A DNA stretch of 64,000 nt. Origin: Flavobacteriia bacterium (lineage in GTDB: Bacteria; Bacteroidota; Bacteroidia; Flavobacteriales_D; Crocinitomicaceae). Of this stretch, positions 60,769-64,000 are shown piece after piece; position 1 is the first letter of the stretch; every line of letters begins with the position of its first letter. The notes beneath the pieces are model-generated. The model saw only the letters and a list, made by a program, of their open reading frames with translations. It ran no database searches and was not told where the DNA came from. The stretch spans positions 1 through 64,000 of the forward strand of contig JACPDW010000010.1 in NCBI GenBank assembly GCA_016183815.1, written 5' to 3'. A program made the position numbers and the translations under genes.

Positions 60769-62136
60769 TTAGGGTCTTTTATATTTGCAACAGGAAGGCA
60801 AAGCATCATACACTTCCTTTTTTGCTCTATGTGTTTCTGTGTCGTAACCAACATCAGCTAAATGTTGTTTAATTTGTTCTAAAGAAATTTTATTGGATTG
60901 ATAACGGACAGTTAAACTTAAATTCTCTTTAATCCATTCAGCATATAAAATTCCTTCCTTTGAAATTAAAGTTTTTTCAATTTTTTCTTTACACATAGAG
61001 CAAGCACCCCATACTTTTATAGTTTCTTCTACAATTAAACATTGTTCGTCAATACATTTTTTTACAGTTGGTGTGGCACAGGGCTTGTCTTTTGGATTGG
61101 GAAAAAATCGCCAATTTATTCCAGCGGTAACCTGAAGTGGCATAGCAACTTGAGTACCTTTCATTTTTTGATAAAGTGGAATATCAACAATTGAAAAAAA
61201 GCGAACTTGTTTAGTAATGGAAATGTTTAACTGTGGAGAAAAATAAAAGGTTTTACCTCCAGTAGAAGAAACATCAATATTATACAATCCAAGATAATCA
61301 ACACCTTTTTGAGTATTCATTTTTCCAAGCCATTCGTAACGAAATTGTGCTAATACATGAAAGTTTTTTAAAATTTTTGTGCCAAAAAAAACAGAAAAAC
61401 TTGCAAAATCACCAAAACGCATTCCTAAAGAATTCCAACCTCTTCTCATATACATTCCTTGAAAAAATAATTGAGAATTAATTTTTGGAAACTCACTCAT
61501 AAAAAACAAATATCCTATAAAATCATTTGCTCCAGTTGTAGTCTGAACTGTTGGTGGTGATGTTTGCCAAATTTCCGTTGAATCAATAAAAAATTGACCA
61601 TTTTGTTCATTTAAAAATTTTGAATAACCAATAAATGTTGAATCTTCATGTGAACCTAATGGAATTTTCATACCTAATCCAAGAGTTAATTCAGTATTCC
61701 AACTTAAAGATTGTTTGCTAAACACTTTATAACGAGGTAACAATATCAAATCACCAAACCCTTTGGATTGAATAATCCTTTGTTCATTTTTTACTGTATC
61801 TTTAAACTCATATATTGACCGATGTGTAAAATAACCACTCGAAACAGAAAAAGTCAATTTGTCATTTAATCCATAATCAGTCCTTAAAAATAGATAGTTT
61901 GAAGTCAATTTGTCAAAAAATGGGATACTTTGTTTGTCTTCAGTATAAAATTTTTTGGACGAACTAAAACGATCTGAAAAAGCAAGTTCCAATTCTCCTT
62001 TTCCTAAAACTCCACTTGCCATTCCACCAGCCAAAGGGTTACTCCCTCCTCCAGAACAACACCCTTGCGAAAAAAGAAAATTACCTGAAAAAAAATTGCT
62101 TATTAATACAAAAACTAAAATTAATTTTTGATACAT
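60769..62136 (-). CDS. Outer-membrane beta-barrel-like protein fused to a C-terminal heavy-metal-associated (HMA) domain
   Basis: Signal peptide; GCCSGGGSNPLAGGMASGVLGKGELELAFSDRF then alternating-strand barrel segments; C-term CLIVEETIKVWGACSMCKEKIEKTLISKEGILYAEWIKENLSLTVRYQSNKISLEQIKQHLADVGYDTE (HMA, CxxC) and SCCKYKRP. Confidence 0.82.
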   Translation of the reverse strand: MYQKLILVFVLISNFFSGNFLFSQGCCSGGGSNPLAGGMASGVLGKGELELAFSDRFSSSKKFYTEDKQSIPFFDKLTSNYLFLRTDYGLNDKLTFSVSSGYFTHRSIYEFKDTVKNEQRIIQSKGFGDLILLPRYKVFSKQSLSWNTELTLGLGMKIPLGSHEDSTFIGYSKFLNEQNGQFFIDSTEIWQTSPPTVQTTTGANDFIGYLFFMSEFPKINSQLFFQGMYMRRGWNSLGMRFGDFASFSVFFGTKILKNFHVLAQFRYEWLGKMNTQKGVDYLGLYNIDVSSTGGKTFYFSPQLNISITKQVRFFSIVDIPLYQKMKGTQVAMPLQVTAGINWRFFPNPKDKPCATPTVKKCIDEQCLIVEETIKVWGACSMCKEKIEKTLISKEGILYAEWIKENLSLTVRYQSNKISLEQIKQHLADVGYDTETHRAKKEVYDALPSCCKYKRP

Positions 62137-62891
62137 TTTTTTATATCTTTAACACGACCAGCTTCCATTAAATAAATCTGATAAACACCAGATTGTAAAT
62201 CGTTTAAATCCAAATCGATATTTTTGGTATTTAATGTAACTGGGCTATTTTTTATAATTTTTCCATCAATATTTATCAATTGTATGTTGTCCACTTTTAA
62301 ACTTTCTATCCAACTAACAGTAATACTGTTTTTAATGGTTGGATTTGGGAAAACAAAACTTTGACTAATTGAATTTTCTTGAATTGAATTCAAACAACCA
62401 GCATTAATTTCGTTAAAAGCTTCGTTTACAGCTGCTGTAACGCCAGATTCATTAGGAGTGGTATTGACATTATAATAAACTTTTCCATTACAGCCAATTA
62501 CAACCGCCTTAGGCATTCCATACGAACCGAAATCATCCATGTTAATTGCACTAGTAGAAAATTCAATCGCCATACTTAATCCAGTATTCATCGACCAAGT
62601 TGTTAATGAAGAACAAGAAGTGTTTGCAAAATCATCGGCTAACCAAAATTCAACTTTATTTGGATGTGAAATTGCAAAATTTATAACTGAATTATTAACC
62701 TCAAGCAAAGGTGAAGCACAACTTGAACAAGGCATTGGCCAACCAATTACAATTACTTTCCCTTCATTTAATTTATCGTACAAAACATATTGATCGTTTT
62801 TACAATCTGTTGCTGTAATCTGAGGTGCAGTTTGTGCGATTATAAATGAAGTCACTGTCAACCAAACAATTAAGATGTAATTTTTTTTCAT
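62121..62891 (-). CDS. Secreted T9SS-sorted thioredoxin-like protein with PCSSC motif
   Basis: Signal peptide; VIVIGWPMPCSSCASPLLEVNNSVINFA...GSYGMPKAVVIGCNGKVYYN (cis-Pro-like MPK); C-term FVFPNPTIKNSITVSWIE...GVYQIYLMEAGRVKDIKKCIKN. Overlaps the HMA-fusion start by 16 bp. Confidence 0.82.
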   Translation of the reverse strand: MKKNYILIVWLTVTSFIIAQTAPQITATDCKNDQYVLYDKLNEGKVIVIGWPMPCSSCASPLLEVNNSVINFAISHPNKVEFWLADDFANTSCSSLTTWSMNTGLSMAIEFSTSAINMDDFGSYGMPKAVVIGCNGKVYYNVNTTPNESGVTAAVNEAFNEINAGCLNSIQENSISQSFVFPNPTIKNSITVSWIESLKVDNIQLINIDGKIIKNSPVTLNTKNIDLDLNDLQSGVYQIYLMEAGRVKDIKKCIKN

Positions 62892-62974: not shown

Positions 62975-64000
62975 TTATTTTTGAAAAATACTCCCTACCT
63001 CTTTGGTTATTTTCTGCAATGTTTCCATACCTTTTTGAAGTGCTTCAGAAGACATATCCTCATAATTTGAAAATAAATTTTCAGTAGCTTCCTGTGAAGG
63101 ATAAACTAATATATAATCGTTTTTATTATAAGCTTTATCCATTTTTAATAAAAAGTTTTCTGTTTCATTTGAGAACGAAACACTCCCTTTTCTTGCACTA
63201 CAAATCACTAGTAAATCGCTTTTATAAATTTTAATATTTTTTAAAAAAACCTCCTCTAAAGTGTTAATTAAATGGATATTCAATTCAATAGTTGTTTTCC
63301 TATTTTCTAAATACAATTTGATTTTTTCACTAACATAAGAATTGGCAACAATTTCTAAAGAAATATTCAGTTGAAGTGATAATCGGATAATTCTTTCCAA
63401 CCATGAAGTAAAACTATTTTCTAAATCTGAAAATGGTGGACAATAAAGAAAAATTCTTTTTTTCTCTATAAAAGGACGGTCAATTTTACAAAAAAAGATG
63501 GTTTTAGGACAAAATTCTAATAAGCGTTCTCTTTCATCACCAACAATTTTCATCAATAATTGGTCGTGTTTACTGTCATTAAGCACAACAATATCAGCAG
63601 CTAACTCTTTTGAAGTTCGTGCGATACCACTACTAATGTTATTATCTATTGTAGCAATTGGATTAACTTTAATTTCTCCTCCTGAATAATGTTTCACAAT
63701 TTCTTCCATGTGATTTCGGGAAGCACGTATCTTTTTTTCGGCTTCAATATCATTCTGAAGAACACTGACAACAGATATTGGATTTATTACCTTTTTGTCC
63801 GTTATTAATATTGAAAAGTCAATTAAATTTTCATTTCCTTTTAATTCATTTGTCGCCACAATAAGATGTTGACTTCTTTTAGAAGGAGAAGTCAATGCTT
63901 CATCATCAATGTTTTCTAATAAATATTTTCTTGAAGCATTTTCTGTGATTAAAGAGGCAATCATACAAGTTAAAAGAATTAAAATTACTGTTCCATTGAC
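62975..64000 (-). CDS. C-terminal part of a CPA2-type cation:proton antiporter with USP-like cytosolic domain; N-terminus beyond the window
   Basis: The frame stays open to 64000 (VNGTVILILLTCMIASLITENASRKYLLEN...), so the tracked M at 63964 is internal; remainder resembles a tandem universal-stress-like domain (RTSKELAADIVVLNDSKHDQLLMKIVGDERERLL). Confidence 0.75.
   Translation of the reverse strand, partial: VNGTVILILLTCMIASLITENASRKYLLENIDDEALTSPSKRSQHLIVATNELKGNENLIDFSILITDKKVINPISVVSVLQNDIEAEKKIRASRNHMEEIVKHYSGGEIKVNPIATIDNNISSGIARTSKELAADIVVLNDSKHDQLLMKIVGDERERLLEFCPKTIFFCKIDRPFIEKKRIFLYCPPFSDLENSFTSWLERIIRLSLQLNISLEIVANSYVSEKIKLYLENRKTTIELNIHLINTLEEVFLKNIKIYKSDLLVICSARKGSVSFSNETENFLLKMDKAYNKNDYILVYPSQEATENLFSNYEDMSSEALQKGMETLQKITKEVGSIFQK

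Follow-up and report, generated by a model that had tools for sequence, protein, structure and literature searches.

A conserved gene pair for a surface-directed thioredoxin-like protein and an outer-membrane barrel in Bacteroidota: a candidate copper/silver relay

Two overlapping genes near one end of the 64,000-nucleotide stretch of DNA analyzed here (the window) provoke a question: why would a thioredoxin-like protein bearing a T9SS sorting tail (gene 1) be encoded together with an outer-membrane barrel that ends in an HMA domain (gene 2)? The first-pass annotation of the window had viewed the pair as a plausible copper or soft-metal system unlike any that it recognized. Its gene coordinates, the 455-residue length of the barrel protein, the 16-bp overlap, the signal peptide and the HMA end were all borne out by the open reading frames and by domain searches (Table 1). 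The answer developed below is graded: the pair is a conserved module of Bacteroidota, it very likely handles metal of some kind, and on balance we consider it probable that the metal is copper or silver, possibly relayed across the outer membrane.

Table 1. Features of the gene pair, with positions in the window.
Feature	Residues	Positions	Strand	Basis
Gene 1, T9SS-targeted thioredoxin-like protein, 256 aa		62121-62891	(-)	ORF listing
Gene 1, signal peptide (approximate), MKKNYILIVWLTVTSFIIAQ	1-20	62832-62891	(-)	by eye
Gene 1, CSSC active-site-like motif	55-58	62718-62729	(-)	alignment
Gene 1, T9SS type A sorting domain	180-252	62136-62354	(-)	PF18962
Overlap of genes 1 and 2, 16 bp		62121-62136	(-)	
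Gene 2, outer-membrane barrel with C-terminal HMA domain, 455 aa		60769-62136	(-)	ORF listing
Gene 2, signal peptide (approximate), MYQKLILVFVLISNFFSGNFLFSQ	1-24	62065-62136	(-)	by eye
Gene 2, N-terminal GCCSGG tail, before strand 1	25-30	62047-62064	(-)	
Gene 2, barrel	49-344	61105-61992	(-)	AlphaFold model
Gene 2, HMA domain, motif GACSMCK	368-432	60841-61035	(-)	PF00403, CopZ models
Gene 2, CSMC metal-site-like motif of the HMA domain	379-382	60991-61002	(-)	
Gene 2, C-terminal CC, in SCCKYKRP	449-450	60787-60792	(-)	

We examined the conservation of the pair at two depths. Among 300 genomes of the host's order (the window genome plus 299), homologs of the barrel and of the thioredoxin protein at E <= 1e-30 were found in an identical set of ten, nine besides the window genome. 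The two genes are adjacent in all of these genomes that can be read; in G078, the two genes lie at the ends of two different contigs. Counting every order-level match as a homolog was rejected, as most of them were isolated HMA domains or T9SS tails. When 84,980 species genomes were then scanned with two patterns, 80 loci were obtained, all from records whose titles describe MAGs of Bacteroidota or unassigned bacteria, and removing near-duplicates and adding the order-level loci resulted in 83. Two of these (L090 and L136) were left out because the barrel lies at a contig edge. At 79 of the 81 observable loci, the thioredoxin gene is directly upstream of the barrel gene on the same strand; the gap has a median of 16 bp and is shorter than 100 bp at 75 loci. 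The other two, L121 and L128, have no thioredoxin gene beside the barrel. Because this arrangement is kept in about 80 independent loci, the pairing far exceeds chance, and the co-occurrence proposed for the two genes holds at both depths.

The window itself, viewed in isolation, would have given a different impression. No metal gene lies beside the pair there and nothing adjoining it is conserved, a solitary position that would fit a surface thioredoxin with a housekeeping role and a porin unrelated to it, kept side by side by chance without forming a functional unit. We reject that explanation as highly improbable, given that order and strand are the same at 79 of 81 loci, which span many deep branches. 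Upstream of the pair, on the same strand, is an antiporter-like gene (717 aa; 62975-64000 of the window, running past its end; L062:4976-7129), the C-terminal part of whose product resembles universal stress proteins (UspE, 0.0027). It was dismissed as a part of the system: neighborhood clustering did not find it beside the homologs.

What kind of protein does gene 1 encode? The PCSSC thioredoxin-like domain and T9SS tail read from it at first pass are both recovered. The sorting tail scores above the cut-offs of both PF18962 (Pfam, 1.2e-10) and TIGR04183 (NCBIfam, 2.1e-8), and in the AlphaFold model (mean pLDDT 89.8) a thioredoxin fold leads into a beta-sandwich tail; a helix at residues 3-13 falls within the putative signal peptide. 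The tail is present in all 63 gene 1 homologs, and a gene for the T9SS sortase PorU (NF033707, 1191.8 bits) is found in the host genome. The top Foldseek match is ResA (2h1b, TMt 0.79). By profile, gene 1 stays below the Pfam cut-offs for Redoxin (17.2 vs. 26.6 bits) and AhpC-TSA (13.3 vs. 26 bits), families that match two or three of the 63 homologs, weakly.

The aligned homologs point to a restricted set of residues. All 63 have PCxxC, and C30, P54, C55, C58, C93 and M126 are invariant; M53 is kept in 55, and H35 and H136, otherwise conserved among the homologs, are missing from the window protein. M126-P127 aligns with the cis-Pro loop of the thioredoxin fold, therefore placing a Met beside the CxxC. 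Judged from these residues, a PCxxC with a Met before the cis-Pro would be suited to Cu(I) binding or to thiol chemistry. Sister T9SS thioredoxin proteins are encoded at L072, L076 and L077 (G121, G106); at L072, one is near an HMA gene and genes that resemble, by eye, those of a copper ATPase and a multicopper oxidase, and other partners replace the barrel.

The partner protein, gene 2, was assigned a barrel body at first pass, and the structural check agrees: the signal peptide, the strand pattern and Foldseek together predict an outer-membrane beta-barrel, modeled with a mean pLDDT of 86.1 and a pTM of 0.76. The chain runs from the signal peptide (a helix in the model at residues 2-17) through GCCSGGGSNPLAGG and a long beta-rich body to the C-terminal HMA domain. 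The best-matching folds are 4rl8_C, a COG4313 channel (TMt 0.78), and FapF (5o67, TMt 0.70). In our reading of the model, there would be 12 membrane strands and one extracellular hairpin (166-192). Turns of 2-4 residues are found on one side of the barrel and mostly longer loops on the other; both ends of the chain are on the short-turn side, which would therefore make the GCC tail and the HMA domain periplasmic. Profile searches were less informative: the barrel has no good match to any Pfam or NCBIfam family and no PDB relative at E <= 1, and PF13557, which gives no match to the window protein at E <= 1, weakly matches four of 69 barrel relatives, at 0.0015 or weaker.

The N-terminal tail deserves particular scrutiny. 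C26 and C27 are present in 69/69 barrel homologs, an invariance that is partly selected, many of the loci having been retrieved by the pattern QGCCSGG; the order-level matches, retrieved without it, likewise keep the GCC motif. COG4313 channels carry an N-terminal plug, a segment before strand 1 that sits inside the lumen of the 12-stranded barrel (PMC4493636). A cysteine plug in the lumen of gene 2 is an analogy to these channels, not a result, because the model places the GCC tail with very low confidence (block pLDDT 30-44).

More distant barrels share some of these traits. The divergent barrel at L071:8059-9309 (G115), 27% identical to gene 2, starts with SQCCGQS and ends in an HMA domain with a CCKYER tail; no thioredoxin gene adjoins it. 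The barrels of L160-L187 were rejected as module members: they belong to other subfamilies, with no such thioredoxin or HMA gene within their short flanks. The N-termini of those at L160-L182 are Cys-rich (QACCSAG, TCSCAGAP, QCPCMGG), and a thioredoxin or a protein containing the motif DGGPGKDGIP is frequently encoded next to them; the neighbors at L160 include ArsR-like and CDF-like genes.

We next turn to the C-terminus of the barrel. The HMA domain of gene 2 is real, though weak in Pfam: PF00403 gives an E of 0.0026 and 18.5 bits, under the cut-off of 24.8, and no HMA domain of the host genome scores lower. The NCBIfam CopZ models match it at 1.4e-7 and solved structures of ATP7B and CopZ at 3.2e-6 and 1.7e-5, and the modeled domain is a ferredoxin-like beta-alpha-beta-beta-alpha unit with its CxxC at C379-C382. 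On relatives, PF00403 reaches 4.3e-8 for the best fused member and 48 bits for the separate HMA protein of L065. A Cys aligns to the CSMC site in 17/17 rows covering those columns, which mix HMA and HMBD sequences that are non-homologous there. The C-terminal CC of gene 2 recurs at the end of separate HMA proteins.

Comparison across loci reveals that the barrel C-terminus is a swap site for metal domains. A fused HMA domain is found at six loci that form one clade (support 96), nested in the tree among loci with a separate HMA gene. A fused HMBD takes its place at 17 loci (15 by pattern, L147 by PF19335 at 2.5e-11, and L144 as read from its tail), and on the tree HMBD fusion requires four changes, of which three or more fall on well-supported branches. 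Pfam alone detects HMBD in 11 and HMA in six of 69 barrels. At 27 loci, a separate HMA gene (~113 aa) immediately precedes the other two, giving the order HMA, thioredoxin, barrel. Fused domain and separate gene avoid one another (1/22 vs. 27/59; Fisher p = 4e-4). The remaining loci have no metal domain close by, or have an HMA gene further off. A simple end-to-end fusion of neighboring genes was rejected, since a separate HMA gene precedes the thioredoxin gene, whereas a fused domain sits at the C-terminus of the barrel protein: the HMA domain has moved.

These fusions bear on a redox explanation of the pair, in which the thioredoxin protein would reduce or isomerize the disulfides of other surface proteins during copper or oxidative stress; the HMA/HMBD barrel would pass thiol equivalents, or would only anchor and protect its partner. 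Such upkeep would leave unexplained why two unrelated metal domains are fused to the barrel. The ResA-like fold and invariant CxxC of gene 1 speak for it, as do the further T9SS-tailed proteins with related thioredoxin domains at some module loci (e.g., L109); no electron donor gene is consistently linked to the module in the neighborhoods compared. We regard this explanation as quite improbable.

Do the neighbors of the module identify the metal? Copper context was tallied as a gene for CusA, CusB, a copper-type AraC regulator, HYC_CC_PP or a P-type ATPase in the fetched region. Such genes occur within about 8 kb at 23/82 loci, compared to 0/23 control regions of 17 kb, an enrichment that is indicative because the controls were drawn from a small number of Flavobacteriales contigs, without lineage matching to the loci with Cus neighbors. 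The Cus genes share the strand of the barrel almost throughout (CusA at 11/11 loci, CusC at 10/10, CusB at 11/12). At L108 and L111, CusA pieces, CusC, a pair of CusB-like adaptors bearing HMBD and an AraC regulator run directly into the thioredoxin and barrel genes; the family assignments here are CusA/CzcA and CusB/HlyD. HYC_CC_PP is found at ten loci, and TonB receptors are on the same strand at 13. L142 combines HYC_CC_PP, two HMA genes and a TonB receptor with a downstream copper-type ATPase (CopA-type, 577 bits to the copper-ATPase model); of the two P-type ATPase calls, that of L131, a locus with a CusB match as well, does not resemble a copper ATPase. One run at L067 (G173) comprises an HYC_CC_PP-like gene, a TonB receptor, HMA, thioredoxin, barrel and a YncE-like gene. 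Directly upstream of the module at L081 are MbnP, itself T9SS-tailed, and two MauG-type peroxidases (an MbnP/MbnH pair). The soft-metal link suggested by the first-pass annotation is thus strengthened by HMBD in place of HMA, by Cus operons, HYC_CC_PP and copper-type AraC regulators, and, once, by MbnP/MbnH.

The host genome adds context of its own. One run at L219:5514-9724 (G000:C33) encodes HYC_CC_PP, a TonB receptor, a YncE-like propeller and an HMA protein with a CCQP tail, a set similar to the genes that accompany thioredoxin and barrel at L067, and the genome has a CusA-type pump with an adaptor; a copper P-type ATPase (TIGR01511) was not found in this genome, which is rated 100% complete. 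Two other loci merit mention. At L221:480-1498 (G000:C19), near a contig end, a MerT-like protein with a C-terminal HMA domain is encoded next to an ArsR-type regulator. At L224:13028-15622 (G000:C21, ~65028-67622), directly downstream of CusA-/CusB-type genes, is a putative membrane H+-pyrophosphatase of 864 aa, whose unusual Cys-rich tail of about 120 residues is metallothionein-like.

Metal handling in general is well supported by this context. The architecture might be right and copper/silver wrong, with a different soft metal (Hg, Zn or Cd, for instance) as the substrate: the window's HMA domain resembles MerTP too (2e-6), TIGR00914 does not tell CusA and CzcA apart, and L109 has genes that by eye resemble those of a zinc ABC transporter. 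The HMBD fusions, CusB-like adaptors, copper-type ATPase and MbnP/MbnH point instead to Cu/Ag, and we think another substrate unlikely.

How might a copper/silver relay operate? The barrel would be a narrow channel with 12 strands and the COG4313/FapF fold, its Cys-Cys N-terminal tail and its C-terminal HMA or HMBD (or, in relatives, a separate HMA protein) facing the periplasm. The gene 1 protein would be exported by the T9SS and held on the outer surface. The periplasmic domain would hand Cu(I) or Ag(I) to the Cys tail of the channel by ligand exchange, and the tail would hand the ion on to the surface thioredoxin-fold protein. Excess metal would thereby leave the periplasm, or else metal would be captured and taken in. 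The pairing of the genes, the T9SS tail, the predicted folds, the conserved cysteines, the exchange of metal domains and the copper neighborhoods come directly from computation. We infer metal identity, transport, direction and a redox role, or reduction, for the pair; that it relays metal between periplasm and surface has, in our estimation, an about even chance of being correct. Only tentatively do we propose the full version, a continuous chain of soft ligands that needs no RND or TonB machinery, with the Cys-Cys tail gating the channel and an acceptor or donor at the surface. Several observations weigh against the relay reading. About 29 barrel homologs have neither a fused metal domain nor a detected HMA gene nearby, most Flavobacteriales loci resemble the window in having no adjoining metal gene, and CusC is already an exit for Cus, so that an extra channel is not obviously needed. 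Further, we know of no electron source for a surface thiol.

As to direction, export is slightly favored over import because of the Cus and regulator neighbors. The opposite course would have the surface thioredoxin reduce or capture copper and the barrel deliver it to the periplasmic HMA/HMBD, for cuproenzymes or buffering. The TonB receptors would suit this uptake, as would MbnP/MbnH beside the module in L081, a pair known from methanobactin operons (PMC3621798); the most telling neighbors, Cus efflux pumps and copper-type AraC regulators, argue against it. The direction of copper through PcoB is disputed: one study reported that this 12-stranded barrel of an E. coli resistance operon lets copper in (PMC9210255), and another, on the Caulobacter protein, supports efflux (PMC12509749). 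We hold uptake to be possible yet somewhat unlikely.

No description of the module was found in the literature searched (subscription papers were mostly outside its scope), in keeping with the first-pass impression of a system not recognized as described. The module is probably a so far undescribed means by which copper is moved or trapped at the outer membrane, and we know of no counterpart to its surface thioredoxin partner or its exchangeable C-terminal domains. Should this be true, the T9SS gains a role in metal handling, and a widespread, unnamed barrel family of uncultured Bacteroidota gains a likely function. Through the conserved module, the question of how copper crosses the outer membrane becomes testable with two genes.

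How, then, does the module compare to known systems? Gene 1 is like ResA/TlpA in its fold and CxxC; it differs in its predicted T9SS export to the surface, its two extra invariant Cys residues, the Pro before the CxxC and the Met before the cis-Pro. The C-terminal domain of gene 2 has the HMA fold and CxxC of CopZ/MerP-type metallochaperones, but it is fused to an outer-membrane barrel, has CxMC in place of MxCxxC and is followed by a CC tail. CusCBA is often next to the module on the same strand, and its CusB adaptor carries HMBD too; unlike CusCBA, the module lacks an RND pump, an adaptor and a TolC-like component of its own, and it is often found where Cus is absent. The best structural matches of gene 2 are the COG4313/PF13557 (Phenol_MetA_deg) channels and FapF; in contrast to gene 2, the solved proteins have no linked metal domain, and they share no profile match with it. 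COG4313 proteins have been described for hydrophobic molecules (PMC4493636).

The closest parallel in function may be PcoB/CopB (E. coli pco, Caulobacter PcoBA), which, like gene 2, is a 12-stranded outer-membrane barrel. Membership of gene 2 in this family was rejected: neither it nor its relatives match the family in Pfam or NCBIfam, and PcoB is not among the best 50 Foldseek fold matches of gene 2. PcoB has a disordered, metal-binding periplasmic N-terminal tail and belongs to copper-resistance gene sets (PMC9210255, PMC12509749). That tail offers His and Met where gene 2 offers Cys-Cys; gene 2 adds a C-terminal HMA/HMBD, and its partner is a surface thioredoxin in place of a multicopper oxidase. 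Our best reading is that the module may work like PcoB in some respects while being non-homologous to it.
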